Source of the DNA: Candidatus Desantisbacteria bacterium CG1_02_49_89
GTDB taxonomy: Bacteria > Desantisbacteria > UBA1551
DNA length: 7,935 nucleotides
Direction of reading: 5' to 3'
Assembly: GCA_001871075.1 (NCBI GenBank)
Contig: MNUP01000082.1
Span: 1-7,935 of the forward strand
Translations under genes and position numbers: made by a program
In this document: positions 689-7,935 of the stretch, piece by piece
How the letters are laid out: each line of letters starts with the position of its first letter
How positions within the stretch are numbered: position 1 is the first letter of the stretch
Notes under the pieces: generated by a model
Told to the model about the DNA's origin: nothing
Database searches by the model: none
What the model saw: the letters and a program-made list of their open reading frames with translations, nothing else

Positions 689-1453
689 TCATTCTGAAAA
701 CCTGTATTTTATCAGGGTCCATATGGCTTCCAGCCCGTCCTTCCAGCTTATCTTCTTGCCCTCTTCCATCGAACGGGGCTCGTAGCTTATGGGGATTTCC
801 AATATCCTGTGGCCCCTGCGGCTTATCTTCGCGGTCACTTCAGGGCAGAACTCAAAACGCCTGCATTTCAGGTCTATGCCCTTTATGACATCGGCCCTGA
901 AGGCCTTGTAGCAGGTCGGCTCGTCCGTGATCCTGGTCCCGTAAAGCAGGTTCGTCAGGAAAGAAAGGAACTTGCCGCCCAGGTAAAAACTCCAGTAGGA
1001 TTTCCTGCCGGAACCCGTTATCCTGGAACCGTAAACAACGACGGCTTCCCCTTTTATTATCGGCTCGATCAGTTTCAGGTAATCGTTAGGGTCATATTCA
1101 AGGTCCGCGTCCTGTATGATGACCGCTTCTCCGGTCACTGCCTTAAGCCCGGTCCTTATCGCCATTCCCTTCCCCTGGTTCTTTTCATGAAAAATCACCT
1201 TAATCTCGTCGTGCGTCGTACGTCTTACGTCGTACGTTTTAAGCATATCGCGCATGCAGTCACCAGAATCAACATCTACTTGACTCTTGATACTTGACTC
1301 TTGATACTGTTTAAGGAGCTCCCGCGTGCCGTCGGTTGAGCCGTCGTCAACGATTATGATCTCCTTATCGACCCTGACAGCCCTGACCTTCTCAAGCAGG
1401 CTTAAGATCGTGTTCTTCTCGTTATAAACCGGGATTATCACCGACAGTTTCAT
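689..1453 (-). CDS. GT2 family glycosyltransferase, polyprenyl-phosphate mannose/glucose synthase type
   Basis: A 254-residue cytosolic GT-A glycosyltransferase. It starts MKLSVIIPVYNE, has the nucleotide-binding VDDGSTDGT (35-43), the block HEKNQGKG (89-96) and the metal-binding DxD in QDADLEYDP (D115, D117). It ends with EIPISYEPRS...EGKKISWKDG (219-240), a pattern of bacterial dolichyl/undecaprenyl-phosphate sugar synthases. There are no C-terminal membrane segments, so it probably works at the membrane surface, loading a sugar on undecaprenyl phosphate for a GT-C enzyme, most likely the one encoded just upstream (ATGA overlap, 1450-1453; AGGGG as Shine-Dalgarno). Residues about 50-82 are absent from the usual family layout: they lie between a helix and the IKVIFHEKN strand and are encoded by a 99-bp stretch bounded by two heptanucleotide arrays. 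The catalytic motifs are intact, so the enzyme is likely active. The sugar is unknown. Confidence 0.93.
   Translation of the reverse strand: MKLSVIIPVYNEKNTILSLLEKVRAVRVDKEIIIVDDGSTDGTRELLKQYQESSIKSQVDVDSGDCMRDMLKTYDVRRTTHDEIKVIFHEKNQGKGMAIRTGLKAVTGEAVIIQDADLEYDPNDYLKLIEPIIKGEAVVVYGSRITGSGRKSYWSFYLGGKFLSFLTNLLYGTRITDEPTCYKAFRADVIKGIDLKCRRFEFCPEVTAKISRRGHRILEIPISYEPRSMEEGKKISWKDGLEAIWTLIKYRFSE
1208..1235 (-). repeat. Heptanucleotide array, 4 x GTCGTAC type, inside GT2 gene
   Basis: Four contiguous 7-bp units read on the plus strand as GTCGTGC, GTCGTAC, GTCTTAC and GTCGTAC, followed by GTTTTAA at 1236-1242. On the coding strand the unit is GTACGAC and the array encodes most of TYDVRRTTHD. The same design (four units, then GTTTTRA) recurs at 3061-3095 in the GT4 gene. 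Confidence 0.9.
1279..1306 (-). repeat. Heptanucleotide array, 4 x CTTGAYW type, inside GT2 gene
   Basis: Four contiguous 7-bp units on the plus strand: CTTGACT, CTTGATA, CTTGACT, CTTGATA, so also a perfect 14-bp dimer. It encodes residues Y50 to about Q58 (YQESSIKSQ). A related array in the opposite orientation lies in the intergenic region at 6783-6810. Together with the array at 1208-1235 it bounds a 99-bp stretch, exactly 33 codons. Confidence 0.9.
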
Positions 1454-2640
1454 TTCTTACCCCTGTAGACAGAACTGATGGTATAGCTGGCGAATATGAT
1501 AAGGTACGGCTCTATGGGAAGCCTGTACCTCAGCGACGACACAAAAGCAAGGTTTACGAGCATGGTGTAGAGTATCAGGTAATAAATGAACATCAGGTTT
1601 TTTCTGTTCCAGTAAGTCAGCATCAAGCCGGGTATGAAAAGGAGAAGCACCGGGCCGAAACTCAGCATGCTTATCATATTGTTCCTTTTTGAAAAATACC
1701 GCGGGTCTTCGGTATTGAGGCCGATGTTCCAGAACCTCTTAAACTTGCTCAGGCACAACAACGCGAACCTGCCCGGGTCCTGCCTGATAACCTTCAGGGT
1801 CTCGTTTCGAAGATATTTGTCCCTCTGCACCTCGTCCATGCCTGTTGTGTCGGGAAAATATGAGCACGGGCCGCCGGTTGTGTTCCGGGGATTGTTCCCC
1901 TCCCAGAAGGTCCACCCGCCCATTGTTGAAAGCGGCACAAACCTGCCGAAGGCCATATAGTTCCTGGCAGCCCAGGGAGACAGGACCGCGCATACGAGCG
2001 CCAGGACCACGACAAACGTTCCCAGCGCGTCCCGCGCCTTCATCAGGACGAACAACCCGACCAGGATAAAAATAAGGAAGCCCGCGATCTCCGCCCTGCA
2101 CATGATCACTCCGCCGAACACCAGTGACGCCCACGCGTATTTCCTCGTTATTAAAAGCCACATGAAAAGGCATAGCAGGAATATGTACAGCGTTTCGGTC
2201 AGCACCGCCCCGCTGTAATACACGAAGAACGGGTAAAAAGCGGATATGATCGCCGCGATCCTCCCGACCCTGTGCGCGTGCTCGTCTTCCGCAAAAACAG
2301 TGATCGTGATCAGGTACACGAAAAAGCAGGTCAGCGCCGAGATCACTGCCTGGATGACCCTTACCGCGAAAAGATTGCCGGCCCCGAAGACCTTGTAGAT
2401 CCCCGCCAGGAAAAATGAATACAGCGGCATCCTGTACGCGGTCGGGGCGGTATCGATGATCACGCCCTTGCCGGCGATGATATTGAGCGCCATCTGGTTC
2501 CACTGAAGCGAATCGTCAAAATAGAACAGGCCTGACTCGAGAGTAAAAATGTAAAGCAGGCGCCCTATGAACGCAATGATCGTCAGCAGCAGTACGAACT
2601 GCCAGTCAATGCTTATCTCGATTTCCCGTAAGTCTTTCAT
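1450..2640 (-). CDS. Polytopic GT-C glycosyltransferase, ArnT/PMT (GT39-like)
   Basis: A 396-residue integral membrane protein with about ten hydrophobic segments, the first at residues 16-34. The first outer loop carries YFDDS (D42, D43) followed by WNQMALNIIAGKG, the acidic catalytic-loop pattern of GT-C enzymes that move a sugar from a polyprenyl-phosphate donor outside the cytoplasmic membrane. Other landmarks are AYRMPLY, YSGAVLTETLY, SPWAARNY and, near the end, RYRLPIEPYLIIFASY (371-386). Only the end motif and loop layout are shared with the second GT-C protein (3742-4974), so they are distant paralogues. A GTG two codons upstream (2646) abuts the GGAGG; the ATG at 2640 has correct spacing and is chosen. 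It overlaps the GT4 gene by 35 nt and the GT2 gene by 4 nt, so all three are coupled. The acceptor (protein, lipid A or glycan) and sugar are not evident. Confidence 0.88.
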   Translation of the reverse strand: MKDLREIEISIDWQFVLLLTIIAFIGRLLYIFTLESGLFYFDDSLQWNQMALNIIAGKGVIIDTAPTAYRMPLYSFFLAGIYKVFGAGNLFAVRVIQAVISALTCFFVYLITITVFAEDEHAHRVGRIAAIISAFYPFFVYYSGAVLTETLYIFLLCLFMWLLITRKYAWASLVFGGVIMCRAEIAGFLIFILVGLFVLMKARDALGTFVVVLALVCAVLSPWAARNYMAFGRFVPLSTMGGWTFWEGNNPRNTTGGPCSYFPDTTGMDEVQRDKYLRNETLKVIRQDPGRFALLCLSKFKRFWNIGLNTEDPRYFSKRNNMISMLSFGPVLLLFIPGLMLTYWNRKNLMFIYYLILYTMLVNLAFVSSLRYRLPIEPYLIIFASYTISSVYRGKK

Positions 2641-3745
2641 AGACACCCTCCGTTTTACTTATCATTTTTTCTATGCCGAACTCAGACCCGGCTTTTTTTC
2701 TGCCCGCCTCGCCCATTTTTTTCGCAAGTTCCGGGGAACCCGCAAGCGCTTCGATCGCTTTTTCAAGTGCGGGCACGTCCCCCGGAGGCACGAGCAAACC
2801 GGTCTCCCCCTCAACAACAGCCTCCGGTATTCCCCCGGCCCTGCTCGCTATCACGGGCTTTCCTGACGCCATCGCCTCGATCACGGAAACCGGAAAACCC
2901 TCCCACAGCGACGGCAGAACGAATATGTCTATGGCGGCAAGCACCCGCGGTATCTCGTCCCTGAACCCGGCGAATACGGTGTCGTTGCTCACGCCAAGCT
3001 TATCCGCCAGGTCCTTCAGCTCCCCCTCAAGTTTTCCTTCTCCGACCACCAGAAGCTTCAGTCGTACGTCGGGCGTCGTACGTCGGACGTTTTGAAATGC
3101 CTTAAGGAGAAACTTGTGGCCTTTGACCGCGCGCAGGTTCGCTATAATGCCTAACACCGTATCGCCAGGCGCAAACCCGAAGGCTTTTCTGGCAGCACCC
3201 GCATCAGCACCGCAGGCGGCGGCGGCGAATTTTTCCGCGTTAATGCCGTTGTGTATCGTGATGACCCTTGCCGGATCGATCTTTTCCCTTTCGATGAGCG
3301 CCTTTCTTCCTGCCTCGGAATTTGAGATTATAAGGTTACACAGGCCTGATGTCCATTTGTCTAGAGCCGAATGCCAGGGCTTCCTCCATTTGTCAACACT
3401 CCTCTGGCTGGAAATTATGACCGGAACCCCGCACATCCTGCCGGCTATCCTGCCTGCTATGTTCGCGTGGAAAAGGAACGTGTGAAGTATACCGGGTTTT
3501 TCCTTCCTCAGCATCGGGATAATGCCGCAGAGCGCGGGCAGGTCGGTCCTGGATCCCGCGTTAAGGGTTACCGCCTTAACGCCCAGCTTTTCCGCCTCGG
3601 GGAGCAGCGCTCCGCCGGGTTTTATGGCGCACAGAAAAGGCTCGTATTTATTCCTGTCCAGGCCTTCCAGGAGGGCCAGTATCATGCGCTCGGTACCGCC
3701 TATTTTTGAATCAGTCGTGAAATAAAAGATCTTCGTCCTGCTCAT
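2606..3745 (-). CDS. GT4 family glycosyltransferase (GT-B fold)
   Basis: A 379-residue cytosolic GT-B enzyme of normal length. The N-terminal acceptor domain has the glycine loop GGTER (16-20) and HTFLFHANIAGRIAG (88-102). HNGIN (165-169) marks the domain linker. The C-terminal donor domain has NLRAVKGH (203-210; R205 and K208 would contact the nucleotide phosphate), VVGEG (233-237) and the EX7E motif in WEGFPVSVIE (E282, E290), then ASRAGGIPEAVVEGETGLLVPPGD. It would transfer a sugar from a nucleotide donor to a growing lipid-linked glycan, retaining anomeric configuration. Start ATG at 3745 overlaps the upstream stop (ATGA). The Shine-Dalgarno is weak and distant, so translation probably depends on coupling. 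Residues V220-R228 (VRRTTPDVR) are encoded by a heptanucleotide array, yet blend into the normal family pattern before the LLVVGEG strand. The sugar is unknown. Confidence 0.95.
   Translation of the reverse strand: MSRTKIFYFTTDSKIGGTERMILALLEGLDRNKYEPFLCAIKPGGALLPEAEKLGVKAVTLNAGSRTDLPALCGIIPMLRKEKPGILHTFLFHANIAGRIAGRMCGVPVIISSQRSVDKWRKPWHSALDKWTSGLCNLIISNSEAGRKALIEREKIDPARVITIHNGINAEKFAAAACGADAGAARKAFGFAPGDTVLGIIANLRAVKGHKFLLKAFQNVRRTTPDVRLKLLVVGEGKLEGELKDLADKLGVSNDTVFAGFRDEIPRVLAAIDIFVLPSLWEGFPVSVIEAMASGKPVIASRAGGIPEAVVEGETGLLVPPGDVPALEKAIEALAGSPELAKKMGEAGRKKAGSEFGIEKMISKTEGVYERLTGNRDKH
3061..3088 (-). repeat. Heptanucleotide array, 4 x GTCGTAC type, inside GT4 gene
   Basis: Four contiguous 7-bp units on the plus strand: GTCGTAC, GTCGGGC, GTCGTAC, GTCGGAC, then GTTTTGA at 3089-3095. 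Same design and orientation as the array at 1208-1242. It encodes V220 to R228 of the GT4 enzyme. The two arrays sit in different reading phases, one unit apart, and so both give the peptide VRRTTxD. Confidence 0.9.
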
Positions 3746-4974
3746 GTTTTGGGTTTATCCTTTAATTTCGTCCACAGCATCCATAGCCCGTAAGAGGCAA
3801 AAAGGATCAGGTACGGCTCCACAGGCATCCGGTAACGGATCGTAGCCCTGACAAGCACATGGGTCCCGCAGTAATAAATCATAAAAAAATATAAAAGAGA
3901 AAGTTTTTTCCAGTTCTTAAGCGACATAAAAAAACCGGCAAGCGCAAGCGCGAAAAGCGGTATGGTGTAAGCCGCGCTGGCCGCGACATGCATTGCCGAA
4001 TAAGGCTGGCCCGGGCCGGAAATGCGGTGCGGGAAAGGCCTCCAGAAATTCAGGAGCCTGCGCCCCACATACTTAATGTAAGTAACCGGGTTTTTCTTTA
4101 TGAATTCGATTGCCCTGCCCGCGAGCGTGCGGTTCGTTTCCAGTTCGCCCATATTGCTGAATTCTTCGGGCTTGTAATAATAAGCGACGCCGCTGGGGTC
4201 ATCTTTGAAAGAATCGGGATTGTTGTTTATGTAGAGCGCCTGACCGCTGTCCGTTGAATTCAGGAGGAACGCATGGTGTATCCGGTAATTCCTTATTATC
4301 CAGGGAGAAACAACAGCCGCCATGACCAGGACCATAACCGCAAATTTTACGGCGATCTCCTTTTTCCCGCGGTAGTTCAGGAGCATCCAGGCAAGTATAA
4401 AAACAAAGAAGAGGCTCAAGATCGTCCTGCACAGGACTGCCAGGCCGAGGAACAAACCGCAGAACGCGTAATTGGAAACGGATGGCTTTTCCGTGTCCCT
4501 TGCCAGGAAAAATAAAAAGGATAAGATCAGGAAAAGTGTGAGGCTCTCGGGAGCGAGGTAACCGGAGAAAAATATAAATGTCGGGTACAGCGCCGTGGCA
4601 GCGCACGCGAGAGTTCCCGCCGGCCTGCCGAAAAATCTTTTGCCCGTGTAATAAACCAGCACCGCGGAAACCGAGCTGATCAGGGCGACGGATATTTTTG
4701 CCGCAAGGTAGTTACGCCCGAAAAAGAAGAACGGCACCGAGAGGAACAGCGGGAAAGCGGGCGGGCGCCAGGAATAAAAAAGACCTGACGTGAAAGCGAT
4801 AGGGTTTGCCACCGCGTATCCTTTCCCGCTGATAAGGTTAAGCGCGAGCTGGTCCCACCAGTCATCCCACACGTTCACCGTGTTGTCCAGGCTCAGGATC
4901 CACGCCAGCCTTATCAGAAAAGCTGCCGCCACCGCCGCCAGAAGAAACAATCTTTCCTTTTTATCAGATCCCAA
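3742..4974 (-). CDS. Polytopic GT-C glycosyltransferase, ArnT/PMT (GT39-like), TTG start
   Basis: A 410-residue multi-pass membrane protein. After the first transmembrane helix (about 9-28) comes VWDDWWDQLALNLISGKGY, the acidic outer-loop motif (D37, D38) of polyprenyl-phosphate-sugar-dependent GT-C transferases. Further landmarks are SWRPPAFPLF, YLAPESLTLF, SPWIIRNY and RYRMPVEPYLILFASY (380-395); the last matches the GT-C protein at 1450-2640. It would transfer a lipid-linked sugar on the outer face of the inner membrane. The start is TTG at 4974: GGAGG lies 6 nt upstream, and no in-frame ATG occurs before the first helix or the catalytic loop, so a later start would delete essential parts. 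It overlaps the upstream GT2 gene by 11 nt and the GT4 gene by 4 nt. The likely donor-maker is that GT2 enzyme. Acceptor unknown. Confidence 0.88.
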   Translation of the reverse strand: MGSDKKERLFLLAAVAAAFLIRLAWILSLDNTVNVWDDWWDQLALNLISGKGYAVANPIAFTSGLFYSWRPPAFPLFLSVPFFFFGRNYLAAKISVALISSVSAVLVYYTGKRFFGRPAGTLACAATALYPTFIFFSGYLAPESLTLFLILSFLFFLARDTEKPSVSNYAFCGLFLGLAVLCRTILSLFFVFILAWMLLNYRGKKEIAVKFAVMVLVMAAVVSPWIIRNYRIHHAFLLNSTDSGQALYINNNPDSFKDDPSGVAYYYKPEEFSNMGELETNRTLAGRAIEFIKKNPVTYIKYVGRRLLNFWRPFPHRISGPGQPYSAMHVAASAAYTIPLFALALAGFFMSLKNWKKLSLLYFFMIYYCGTHVLVRATIRYRMPVEPYLILFASYGLWMLWTKLKDKPKT

Positions 4975-5719
4975 TCCCGGCCTCCGTGCCTTTTTTTCTG
5001 TATTTCAGGTTCCCGTCCCTGTATTTTTTCCAGAAATCAGCCATGCTCTTCATTGTGCCCCGGATAAGGCTCCATTTCGCCCCGGAACCCGTTCCCTCCG
5101 CGCGCCTGTAATGGGTCACGCCTGTTTCGGCGATCCTGTACCCGGCGAGCGCGGCTTTTATCACAAGCTCCGAATCGATAAATACCGAGGGGAATTCAAT
5201 ATCGATATGCTCGAGCACTTCCCTTTTGAACAGCTTGAAAGAACAGTTGAAATCGCGGAAACGCAGGCCTGTCATGGCGCGGGTAAGCGAATTATAGACC
5301 CATGACTGGAATTTTCTGCGCCAGTCCTCAACACGGTTGGCCCTGTAGCCGATGACGACATCGTTATCTTTCATCATGGGCAGCAGCTTTTTCAGCTCGC
5401 CGATGTCGAATTGCCCGTCACCGTCCGTGTAGAAAACCAGGTCATATCCGGAACGCCCGGGATCCGTAAAACCGGTCTTGAGGGCCTCGCCGTACCCGCG
5501 GTTGACCGGATGGTGTATGACCCTGACGTTTTTGTGTTTTCCGGCCAGCCTGTCAGCCAGTTCTCCGGTTTTGTCCGGGCTCCCGTCCTCCACGATAGTG
5601 ATCCTGAAATCGCCTGCTACCTCGGACAGGATGGCTATTGCCGCGGAAACCACCCCTTCAAGATTGCCCTCATCCTTATACGCGGGGCAGAAAAAATATA
5701 TAGAAGGTTTTTTATCCAT
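4964..5719 (-). CDS. GT2 family glycosyltransferase, polyprenyl-phosphate sugar synthase type
   Basis: A 251-residue GT-A glycosyltransferase without membrane segments. Motifs in order: YFFCPAYKDEGNL (8-20), VEDGSPDKTGE (43-53), HHPVNRGYGEALKTGF (69-84), the metal-binding DGDGQFD (D99, D101), FNCSFKLFKREVLE (147-160) and VTHYRRAEGTGSG (191-203). FNCSFKLF and HYRR..G.GSG are typical of the DPM1-like/undecaprenyl-phosphate glycosyltransferase branch. It probably charges undecaprenyl phosphate with one sugar for the GT-C protein encoded immediately downstream, whose TTG start it overlaps by 11 nt. It is only distantly similar to the GT2 enzyme at 689-1453 and carries no repeat-encoded insert. 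ATG at 5719 has GAGGGG 11 nt upstream, a rather long spacing. That Shine-Dalgarno lies at the edge of an intergenic palindromic element. First gene of the tightly overlapping block. The sugar is unknown. Confidence 0.93.
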   Translation of the reverse strand: MDKKPSIYFFCPAYKDEGNLEGVVSAAIAILSEVAGDFRITIVEDGSPDKTGELADRLAGKHKNVRVIHHPVNRGYGEALKTGFTDPGRSGYDLVFYTDGDGQFDIGELKKLLPMMKDNDVVIGYRANRVEDWRRKFQSWVYNSLTRAMTGLRFRDFNCSFKLFKREVLEHIDIEFPSVFIDSELVIKAALAGYRIAETGVTHYRRAEGTGSGAKWSLIRGTMKSMADFWKKYRDGNLKYRKKGTEAGIGI

Positions 5720-5740
5720 TTTAAAATTATCCCCTCACCC

Positions 5741-5771
5741 CCCGAACCAGTCGCTACGCTCCGGTTCAGGG
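5741..5771. repeat. Intergenic inverted repeat upstream of GT2 gene
   Basis: CCCGAACC (5741-5748) pairs with GGTTC-A-GGG (5763-5771), eight base pairs with one bulged A and a 14-nt loop. The palindrome lies between two copies of CCCTCACC (5732-5739 and 5797-5804), which could be a duplicated target of an inserted element or chance in C-rich DNA. In the minus-strand transcript the hairpin ends just before the GAGGGG used by the GT2 gene. Confidence 0.6.
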
Positions 5772-5808
5772 CAAGCCCATTCTCTCTATCTACCCACCCT
5801 CACCTCAA

Positions 5809-5860
5809 TCCTCCCCCGTCCCACCCAGAAAGATTGGCGGGTCTTCGACAAGGGGGAGGA
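5809..5860. repeat. Long GC-rich palindrome after RmlD-like gene
   Basis: TCCTCCCCC (5809-5817) is exactly complementary to GGGGGAGGA (5852-5860). The stem continues inward with GTC/GAC (two bulged A's) and an inner CCC-A-CC/GG-C-GGG helix around a 10-nt loop. It sits 20 nt beyond the stop of the RmlD-like gene. No run of T follows on either strand, so it looks more like a REP/MITE-type element than an intrinsic terminator, though it could reduce read-through or stabilise the mRNA 3' end. Confidence 0.6.
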
Positions 5861-5879
5861 AGACTAATGAAGGTATTTT

Positions 5880-6722
5880 TTACTGCAGCCAGTTTTTCAG
5901 ATATTCGCTAAGGGCTTCCTGCCACGGCCTCATTTTGTGCACGCCCAGCAGTTCAAGCTTGTAATTCCTCATCGCTTCCGAATCCGCCCTGGGCGCCGGG
6001 AGCGGGAAAACCGATGAAGGCACCGGCTCCACCGGAGTTTTTTTGCCCAGGATCTTCCCTATCTCCACGGCAACGTCATACCTGCTGCACACGCCGGTGT
6101 TCGCCATGTGGTAAAGGCCGAAATAACCGGTCGTGATCAATTTTTTAATACCTTCCAGAAGATCGCGCGCGTACGTGGGGGTGCCTGTCTTGTCGTTCAC
6201 GGCAAGGATCTTGTCCTTTTCGCCGAACTGCCTTACTATCTTACCGACAAACTTTTTGTCTTTTTCCCTGCCGCCGATCATCCATCCGGCCCTGACGATA
6301 TAGTACCTGTCCAGCAAAAACCGGACTATTTTCTCGCCTTCCCATTTTGCGCGCCCGTAGATATTCGCGGGATCCGGCTGGTCAAATTCCGTATACGGCT
6401 CGGATTTCCCGCCCCCAAAAACTCCCGCAGTGCTGATGTAGATCATTACCGCTCCGGCTTCCTGGCAGGCAAGCGCGACATTCTGCGTCCCCAGCGCGTT
6501 GGTCAGATACGCGTGGTCCGCTTCTTTTTCGCACCTGTCCACATCTGTCTCCGCGGCAAGGTGCAGAACGAATTCAGGCTTCCTTTTTTTGATCTCGTTC
6601 CTGACTTTCACGGGATCCGTTACGTCAAGGGTGTCTATGTCCGTAAGAACGAGCTTCCCGCCGCTGAAAACCTCTTCCAGGTAACTGCCCACCATTCCGT
6701 TAGCGCCGGTCACGAATATCAT
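5880..6722 (-). CDS. RmlD-like NAD(P)-dependent sugar-nucleotide reductase (repeat-free paralogue)
   Basis: A 280-residue extended SDR, the size of dTDP-4-dehydrorhamnose reductase (RmlD). It has TGANGMVGS (G6, G9, G12), acidic D28/D30 after the second strand, HLAAETDVDRCE (54-65) and the catalytic set T98 (ISTAGVFGG), Y122 and K126 (YGRAKWEGE), with the same T-to-Y spacing as RmlD. Later come RAGWMIGG, the NDKTGTPTYARDL substrate region and YHMANTGVCSRYD. Classical RmlD has STDYVFDG; here DY is replaced by AG, so a different 4-keto sugar or another reaction is possible and rmlD is not assigned. AAGGAG lies 5 nt before the ATG at 6722. By my hand alignment it is about 69% identical to the next upstream gene, a clear tandem duplication, but it lacks the roughly 37-residue repeat insert of that copy. 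Probably supplies a nucleotide sugar for the glycosyltransferases that follow. Confidence 0.92.
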   Translation of the reverse strand: MIFVTGANGMVGSYLEEVFSGGKLVLTDIDTLDVTDPVKVRNEIKKRKPEFVLHLAAETDVDRCEKEADHAYLTNALGTQNVALACQEAGAVMIYISTAGVFGGGKSEPYTEFDQPDPANIYGRAKWEGEKIVRFLLDRYYIVRAGWMIGGREKDKKFVGKIVRQFGEKDKILAVNDKTGTPTYARDLLEGIKKLITTGYFGLYHMANTGVCSRYDVAVEIGKILGKKTPVEPVPSSVFPLPAPRADSEAMRNYKLELLGVHKMRPWQEALSEYLKNWLQ

Positions 6723-6740
6723 GCCTTCTCCTTATAAAAT

Positions 6741-6774
6741 GATTACGGTGATTTCAAAAGAGATTACGGTGATT
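6741..6774. repeat. Direct repeat GATTACGGTGATT x2
   Basis: Two identical 13-bp copies (6741-6753 and 6762-6774) with a 21-bp period, which is three heptads. They lie in the leader between the putative promoter and the Shine-Dalgarno of the RmlD-like gene, and the second copy overlaps the putative -10. Confidence 0.8.
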
Positions 6775-6802
6775 ATATTAAGTGTCAAGTGTCAAGTATC
6801 AA
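6772..6802 (-). promoter_or_regulatory. Putative promoter of RmlD-like gene, -35 from heptad array
   Basis: TATAAT on the minus strand (6772-6777) is preceded by TTGATA (6797-6802) with a 19-nt spacer, longer than the optimum of 17. Exact TTGACA hexamers occur in the other heptads, but at spacings of 5, 12 and 26 nt. Transcription would start near 6765, about 42 nt before the ATG. The -10 is perfect; the spacing is the weak point. Confidence 0.4.
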
Positions 6803-6810
6803 GTGTCAAG
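6783..6810 (+). repeat. Heptanucleotide array, 4 x TGTCAAG type, intergenic
   Basis: Four contiguous units: TGTCAAG, TGTCAAG, TATCAAG, TGTCAAG, 28 bp in total. This is the reverse orientation of the related array at 1279-1306 (CTTGACT/CTTGATA), and the only heptad array here outside a coding region. Confidence 0.9.
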
Positions 6811-6828
6811 CTTGAAACTAAAATAATA

Positions 6829-6862
6829 TTTCGTGCTTTCGTGACACTTTCGTGATTTCGTG
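6829..6862. repeat. TTTCGTG repeat, four copies
   Basis: TTTCGTG occurs at 6829-6835, 6837-6843, 6848-6854 and 6856-6862 (spacings 8, 11 and 8). The cluster ends 6 bp past the stop codon of the upstream RmlD-like gene. It has no obvious hairpin, so it does not look like a terminator; none is visible in this gap. Confidence 0.85.
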
Positions 6863-6868
6863 GAAATT

Positions 6869-7825
6869 TCAGAGTTTCCAGGTCGAAAGATAATCTTTCA
6901 GCGCGTCCTGCCAGGTTCCCATTTTCGCCATCCCAAGCAGTTTTAACTTGTAGCTTTCCAGCGCTTCAGAGCGCGCCCTGGGAGCGGGCGACGGGAAACG
7001 GGACGAATCAACGGGCCTGACAGGGATGTTCTTCCCCAGTATCCTGCCTATCTCCACGGCAACGTCATACCTGCTGCACACGCCGGTGTTCGCCATGTGA
7101 TAAAGCCCGTAATAACCGGTCTTCATCAGATCCCTTATCCCCTCTACCAGCTGCGGAGCGTATGTAAGGGTCCCGTGCTTGTCGTTCACCGCGAGGATCT
7201 CGGGCCCGGGCGTCCCAGCTTGCCGGGCGTCACGGGGCGCCCGAACTTGTTCGGGGTCACGGGGTGCCCGAACTTGTTCGGGGTCACGGGGCGCCCGAAC
7301 TTGTTCGGGGATTTCTATTTCCCTGAACTGCCTTACTATTTTCCCCACGAACTTCTTGTCCTTTTCCTGGCCGCCGCCTATCATCCATCCGGCCCTGACT
7401 ATGTAATATTTCTTCAGGAGGCCCTGCACCGCCTTCTCGCCTTCCAGCTTTGTCCGGCCGTAGGTATTGGCGGGGCTGGGCCCGTCGAATTCCGTGTACG
7501 GCCCCTCTTTTTTTCCGTCGAAAACACCCGAAGTGCTGACGTACACCATGACTGCGCCGGTTTCCTGGCAGGCAAGCGCCACGTTCTGCGTGCCGATGGT
7601 GTTTGAAAGGAAGGCGTCATCCGGCTCGATCTGGCACCTGTCCACGTCGGTCTTCGCCGCAAGATGGATAACAAAATCAGGCTTTGCCTTTTTAACCGCC
7701 TTCATTACCCCGGCGGGATCCTTTATATCCAGCGTGTCTATGTCGGTAGCGATCAGCTCTTTTTCTTTAAAGAATTTGCTGACATAGCTGCCCACCATGC
7801 CGTTGGCGCCTGTAACGAAAATCAT
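6869..7825 (-). CDS. RmlD-like NAD(P)-dependent sugar-nucleotide reductase with in-frame repeat insert
   Basis: A 318-residue extended SDR, tandem paralogue of the protein at 5880-6722. It keeps TGANGMVGS (G6, G9, G12), D28/D30, T98 in STSGVFDG, and Y122/K126 in YGRTKLEGE, so catalysis should be intact; as in the paralogue, the DY of the classical RmlD STDYVFDG is missing. Residues about 173-209 have no counterpart in the paralogue: three copies of PEQVRAPRD plus a degenerate fourth, placed between the helix ending in KIVRQF and the strand ILAVND. This is expected to be an exposed loop. ATG at 7825 is chosen because AAGGAG lies 5 nt upstream and the protein then begins MIFVTGANG exactly like its paralogue; the same frame is open to an ATG at 7867, but that would add 14 unrelated residues and has no supported ribosome site. 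Probable role: nucleotide-sugar supply for the glycan genes downstream. Confidence 0.92.
   Translation of the reverse strand: MIFVTGANGMVGSYVSKFFKEKELIATDIDTLDIKDPAGVMKAVKKAKPDFVIHLAAKTDVDRCQIEPDDAFLSNTIGTQNVALACQETGAVMVYVSTSGVFDGKKEGPYTEFDGPSPANTYGRTKLEGEKAVQGLLKKYYIVRAGWMIGGGQEKDKKFVGKIVRQFREIEIPEQVRAPRDPEQVRAPRDPEQVRAPRDARQAGTPGPEILAVNDKHGTLTYAPQLVEGIRDLMKTGYYGLYHMANTGVCSRYDVAVEIGRILGKNIPVRPVDSSRFPSPAPRARSEALESYKLKLLGMAKMGTWQDALKDYLSTWKL
7202..7309 (-). repeat. In-frame 27-bp palindromic tandem repeat in RmlD-like gene
   Basis: Three units at 7229-7255, 7256-7282 and 7283-7309 differ at one position only (GGGGCGC versus GGGGTGC). A degenerate fourth (7202-7228) matches at a little over half its positions. 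Each unit holds the near-palindrome CCCGAACTTGTTCGGG and the palindrome GGGCGCCC. The 27-bp period equals nine codons, so copy number can change without breaking the frame. Confidence 0.93.
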
Positions 7826-7935
7826 CTGTTCTCCTTTGATAAAATTCCTCAAGGTATCTTTTGACACAGATTTACACAGATTGGCACAGATCTTACTTTT
7901 TCGGTTAATAATATTACAAAAAACAAAATTCCTGT
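7826..7935 (-). other. Leader region of first RmlD-like gene, with CACAGATT decamers
   Basis: Upstream of the Shine-Dalgarno (AAGGAG) lie three tandem decamers, GACACAGATT, TACACAGATT and GGCACAGATC (7863-7892), and then AT-rich DNA to the window end. The AT-rich part is where a promoter would be expected, but I see no convincing -35/-10 pair. Confidence 0.6.

Follow-up and report, generated by a model that had tools for sequence, protein, structure and literature searches.

The question raised by this locus is what the short heptanucleotide arrays in and around its glycosyltransferase genes are, and how they came to be there. The window, by which we mean the whole 7,935-bp stretch analyzed, is contig C61 of Candidatus Desantisbacteria bacterium CG1_02_49_89, whose genome comprises 2.48 Mb in 150 contigs. 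Its minus-strand genes encode nucleotide-sugar epimerases, GT2 and GT4 glycosyltransferases, PMT_2 membrane proteins, and two adjacent RmlD-type reductases. A first-pass annotation had described four arrays of exactly four heptanucleotides, 28 bp each, as members of a dispersed repeat family with a preferred copy number of four. Tandem Repeats Finder and direct reading of the sequence place four period-7 arrays at these positions, with the 28-bp stretches lying inside arrays whose full length is about 31 bp, or four heptads plus three bases. Three of the arrays lie within glycosyltransferase genes, as had been noted, and the resemblances drawn among them are real: a GTCGTAC unit and a GTTTTRA flank are common to arrays 1 and 3, and CTTGAYW/TRTCAAG units occur in opposite orientation in arrays 2 and 4. 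The features are as follows.

689..1453, minus strand: GT2 glycosyltransferase gene (PF00535) with arrays 1 and 2
1207..1237, plus strand: array 1, GTCGTAC family, 31 bp, in the GT2 gene; followed by TTTAAGCATAT
about 1277..1308, minus strand: array 2, CTTGAYW family, 31 bp, in the GT2 gene with array 1
2606..3745, minus strand: GT4 glycosyltransferase gene (PF00534) with array 3
3061..3090, plus strand: array 3, GTCGTAC family, in the GT4 gene, residues 219-229, NVRRTTPDVRL
6739..6776, plus strand: module adjoining array 4, two GATTACGGTGATT copies; 38 bp, with an identical copy in locus L044
6780..6810, plus strand: array 4, AAGTGTC family, 31 bp, intergenic between two rmlD/rfbD genes
6826..6867, plus strand: TTTCGTG-type short array, third module of the intergenic mosaic around array 4
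7861..7892, plus strand: period-10 array of about three units (CACAGATT, 2-bp spacers)

Region 1180–1275 gave 78 BLAST matches in loci of the same genome, the best being 36 bp at 92% identity, and the sequence TTTAAGCATAT 3' of array 1 resembles loop TTTAAAGATTTAT of the GTCGTAC palindromic element described below. Copies of array 2 reached up to 97–100% identity in loci L037 and L056. Array 4 is one of a series of modules that all have copies elsewhere in the genome. The intergenic gap that holds it consists of three modules (6739–6776, array 4, and 6826–6867), the last of which matches L039 and a second locus of the same genome over 42 bp at 98% identity. These kinds of module recur in similar order in L040 and L037, with other short arrays replacing some of them. 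Two further repeats were seen in the window. An intergenic stretch of 68 bp (5794–5861) has a 96% copy at L037:561-628, and a core resembling AGATTGGCGGGTCTTCGA within it was also seen in several further genome stretches. At 7224–7310, the second rfbD-like gene carries an in-frame insert of about three copies of a 27-bp unit (containing CCCGAACAAGTTCGGG), which is absent from the tandem rfbD-like paralogue at 5880–6722.

Tandem arrays of short units were abundant in the sampled genome. The sample covered 491 kb in 40 stretches, 10 of which were the window contig and contigs picked for holding matches, while the other 30 were taken by contig number. Across these 491 kb we found 99 period-7 arrays compared with 0 in first-order shuffled sequence; the agreement with shuffled sequence that the first-pass annotation had named as refuting a distinct family was not seen. 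Periods 8, 9, and 10 were represented by 28, 25, and 24 arrays, respectively, versus 0, 0, and 1 after shuffling; periods of 11 or more mostly gave few or none, except for 43 arrays at period 14, the double of 7. The sequence GTCGTACGTCGTAC, allowing up to two mismatches, occurs 354 times in the genome, compared with 32 occurrences of its reversed control. The 30 contigs taken by number held 160 arrays in 303 kb, which extrapolates to an estimated 1,300 or so arrays per 2.48-Mb genome.

Array lengths were peaked. Rather than spreading smoothly from two to many copies, a pattern set out beforehand as speaking against a distinct element, period-7 arrays showed a sharp length peak at 30–31 bp (67 out of 179 arrays), with a minority longer, up to 57 bp. 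Full period-9 arrays measured 39–42 bp, period-8 lengths were broader, and period-10 arrays were about 29 bp and usually contained three units. Consensus units in the sample fell into 121 groups, many of them related, with related ones counted separately. The original description of the arrays therefore needs revision in part: they are dispersed, contain approximately four units, share flanks, and sometimes lie in frame in coding DNA, but they make up dozens of unit sequences with periods of 7 to 10 instead of one family, and the constant for period 7 is a length of 31 bp.

Comparison of arrays between loci suggests that they spread as larger pieces. The order of variant units was conserved between loci relative to permuted units in the GTCGTAC family (24 arrays, p <= 0.0033) and in the TTGCAAA family (p = 0.013); it was not significant in the AATTATG, CGTGTCAA, and AGTTTACAG families, with 5–11 arrays each. 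Where arrays were listed with their flanks, several families had shared flanking sequence mainly on one side. We also found 24 inverted pairs of arrays of the same family, with spacers that were mostly family-typical, either 12–14 bp or 35–51 bp. Taken together, conserved unit order, shared flanks, and shared partners favor dispersal of whole arrays or elements. Larger composites were reconstructed for the two main families, and about 10–15% of arrays lay in detected inverted pairs.

The clearest composite, R1, is built from AATTATG arrays. A pair of these arrays and the 35–47-bp spacer between them align as one 104-bp element with exact, sharp ends (AATTATG...CATAATT) and unrelated outer flanks. 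A genome-wide covariance model search returned 94 hits over both strands, which correspond to 48 places because the element is palindromic and is found on both strands; this count is a lower bound, as 150 of 740 candidates were scored. The element has terminal inverted repeats like those of a MITE, with the arrays as its arms, and target-site duplications at its borders showed no excess over shuffled flanks. None of the 31 base pairs had been altered on both sides in a compensatory manner, and Rfam had no match in the window. A structured RNA was rejected on these two grounds.

The two arms of the 104-bp element are different from each other in a consistent way. Among 14 orientable elements, the arms of one element differed at 4.64 of 31 positions, compared with 3.74 +/- 0.28 for randomly paired arms, and the asymmetry is constant, with AATGATG units tending to one arm and AGTTATG units to the other. 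Snap-back synthesis, in which one arm is copied from the other, was rejected because arms are less alike within an element than between elements. The center of the element is also recognizable by itself. A half-center motif (CAWGGWATT and variants) lies 3' of 19 out of 27 AATTATG arrays, always on the same side and never preceding the array, and it likewise lies 3' of 6 out of 21 CGTGTCAA 8-bp arrays and never before them, with about 0.2 expected per set. Arrays of different period therefore sit on the same kind of center.

The second composite, R2, is the GTCGTAC element of 72 bp or longer, with 80 hits at 44 places genome-wide, some of which are extended by further arrays. Arrays 1 and 3 of the window are of the GTCGTAC type and are arms of this element. 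Because arrays of both families form the arms of larger palindromes, each with a center of its own, the flank that arrays share is the inner part of an element. Every unit of the GTCGTAC composites contains CGTC, so a REP-type unpaired-foot tag (GTAG or CGTC) is indistinguishable in them.

Arrays were mostly intergenic, between co-directional genes, and many were close behind stop codons. By a home-made gene caller, about 13% lay in predicted genes, compared with 74% of the sample being coding; the gene gaps of L031-L070, from the same kind of caller, were 289 tandem, 6 divergent, and 5 convergent. Orientation relative to co-directional genes was even in both main families (19:19 for GTCGTAC and 10:13 for AATTATG), although inverted pairs put one array on each side by construction. 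This evenness speaks against a strand-specific RNA role. Median distances to the start codon in the two families were 86 and 42 bp, and forward placement upstream of starts of the kind seen in TAACTGA repeats was not found.

Some arrays are nevertheless found in coding sequence, where they survive in loops of GT2, GT4, LeuRS, and MnmG. The GT2 region that spans both arrays (1206..1310, minus strand, about residues 49-84) is roughly 25 residues longer than in aligned relatives from many phyla. A Nitrospirota GT2 gene has its own period-7 array (L094:3149-3184) in the loop matching that of the window GT2 arrays, which appears to be a separate insertion into a site that tolerates it. The GT4 protein shows a net gain of only two residues at array 3 compared with most homologues, so native sequence must have been replaced or trimmed as well. 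In LeuRS (L066), two arrays lie in the editing-domain region with small net gains relative to T. thermophilus LeuRS, and MnmG and a ThiL-like protein also contain arrays. Five arrays encode hydrophobic N-termini judged by eye to be signal-peptide-like (L047:16009-16051, L054:2966-2995, L054:4922-4952, L070:2484-2513, and L048:987-1017), four of them of the AGCTTTC type; it looks as though repeats had furnished the cores of signal peptides. We also observed an 807-residue protein (L032:12856-15276) that contains three arrays, each of a different family, within a single reading frame; a PDB search with it gave no match. The suggestion that the repeats tolerate coding DNA stands only in part: arrays are sometimes in frame and their persistence probably depends on the frame being kept, but coding DNA as a whole is avoided.

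Several explanations could account for such arrays. Polymerase slippage on 7- to 10-bp units could have expanded them in place, array by array, in the manner of microsatellites. Many prokaryotes have an excess of heptamer repeats, for which slippage has already been proposed as the cause (PMC4692102); the longer minority of period-7 arrays is in keeping with this. We consider in-place expansion quite unlikely here, as lengths peak at 31 bp with no decay, GTCGTAC copies far apart keep the order of their units, inner flanks and inverted partners recur from array to array, and the same unit sequence stands at dozens of loci. The arrays could otherwise be conserved binding sites, with four or five evenly spaced cores that a protein binding DNA or RNA would read close to where genes start or end. 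Their intergenic position between co-directional genes, often close behind stop codons, agrees with this, as does an inverted pair in locus L079 just upstream of a Shine-Dalgarno-like sequence, and a protein-binding role would also fit the fixed length. The main families, however, have no gene-orientation bias, no compensatory changes, and no preferred distance to the start codon; their units are unrelated in sequence, arrays are present in coding loops, and they are nearly absent from the one same-order genome, which makes binding sites an unlikely explanation.

A third candidate is that the arrays are REP/REPIN elements moved by RAYT (Y1) transposases of the genome itself. The genome encodes 10 Y1_Tnp proteins, and the palindromic elements lie between genes, form inverted pairs in part, and lack target-site duplications, all in line with such an origin. 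The RAYT genes of contig C23 are instead flanked by a different hairpin family, CGTAACTCAGGGCTAAAGCCCTGA, and the arms here are tandem arrays rather than simple hairpins of 20–40 bp, so we regard this route as improbable. Flanks of the IS200-like gene and the other Y1 genes examined contained no heptad arrays, except for an 8-bp array near one truncated copy, and RAYT or IS200 were rejected as carriers because the flanks of the genes examined do not match the heptad composites. At L060:1824-4400, two RAYT-like genes lie amid tandem and inverted REP-like hairpins (CGTAACTCAGGGCTAAAGCCCTGA / GTCAAACCTGAAGGTTTGAGTTACG).

We think it probable that the arrays are component parts of small dispersed DNA elements that do not code for protein and are copied whole. 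In the two best-studied families, the element has an imperfect palindromic center, with a four-unit array forming one arm and a related, non-identical inverted array the other. Whole elements may be copied to new sites at the DNA level by a putative trans-acting activity that leaves no target duplication and perhaps recognizes folded hairpins. Arrays that stand alone would be one arm of an element, remnants of decayed elements, or pieces of mosaics. Long perfect palindromes are unstable in bacteria, and the asymmetry of the arms could be maintained for this reason; differences between units may likewise be kept, as identical units would slip, and length would thereby be held near 31 bp. Insertions into genes would persist only where the reading frame was kept and the site tolerated extra residues.

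Comparison with other genomes was made for 58 assemblies, of which one, G001, belongs to the same order and the rest share only the domain. G001 is distant and nearly array-free, and was for these reasons rejected as an empty-site control. The 104-bp element was found in none of the 58 genomes under stricter filters, and dense period-7 arrays occurred in only 2 out of 40 single stretches from other genomes. Single arrays close to 31 bp long were present in named loci of several unrelated phyla. In L079, an Actinomycetota-labelled locus, two inverted arrays separated by a 15-bp spacer stand immediately before a gene. These similar arrays in genomes from other phyla, one of them an inverted pair, bear on a broader proposal, rather unlikely in our judgment: that these are mobile palindromic DNAs recognized by their architecture (about four 7- to 10-bp units per arm, with mismatched arms) more than by sequence, with differing modules swapped on a common center, and that they occur in several phyla.

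Repeats of comparable form are known from other bacteria. The STRR sequences of heterocystous cyanobacteria (Calothrix, Nostoc) are dispersed tandem heptanucleotides with several units per genome, mainly intergenic. The arrays described here are likewise tandem heptanucleotides dispersed above chance (99 versus 0 arrays and 354 versus 32 occurrences), with several unit sequences and a mainly intergenic position, but differ in having periods of 7–10, the 31-bp length peak, and inverted pairs with conserved palindromic centers. In Rickettsia, palindromic elements lie in frame inside protein genes; those are unrelated in sequence, and in the present genome it is the array arm alone that occurs within genes. 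The Calothrix heptanucleotide case is cited in a study of Xanthomonas GGGAATC repeats, which number about 185 dispersed arrays in each genome, usually of four units, some in inverted pairs and with heterogeneous units, based on one G-rich unit able to form quadruplexes (Rehm et al. 2015, PMC4692102). Dispersal, a usual size of four units, some inverted pairs, and heterogeneous units are shared by our arrays, which differ in comprising many families and in being arms of discrete elements; no G-tract heptamer comparable to GGGAATC was found among the listed consensus unit families. TAACTGA repeats of Beggiatoaceae occur as arrays of 2–6 copies, mostly intergenic with few in ORFs, and have a patchy phylogenetic distribution; they consist of a single unit placed immediately before start codons with a strong forward bias, and a binding role was suggested for them (MacGregor 2015, PMC4679880). 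The present arrays are also mostly intergenic with few inside ORFs and are likewise patchy across lineages, but have many units and no orientation bias. REP/REPIN and other bacterial palindromic repeats are short, intergenic, and non-autonomous, form inverted pairs and lineage-specific families, and occasionally occur in genes (PMC3733652, PMC3116915). Our elements resemble them in all these respects, but their arms are four-unit tandem arrays and an association with RAYT was not found at the flanks examined. A text search of the literature for the repeat strings gave no matches.

The array set is best read as a modular form of the known dispersed heptad repeats; in at least two of its families, the arms of discrete palindromic elements are made up of arrays. 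For decades, heptamer repeats have been described with no known means of dispersal. Here, many of them are tied to palindromic elements with a fixed arm length, a conserved arm asymmetry, and a center common to families of different period, and the 104-bp element at 48 places offers a concrete, testable object instead of a vague microsatellite excess. The entry of such short repeats, in frame, into essential enzymes and probable signal peptides makes them a source of new protein sequence.
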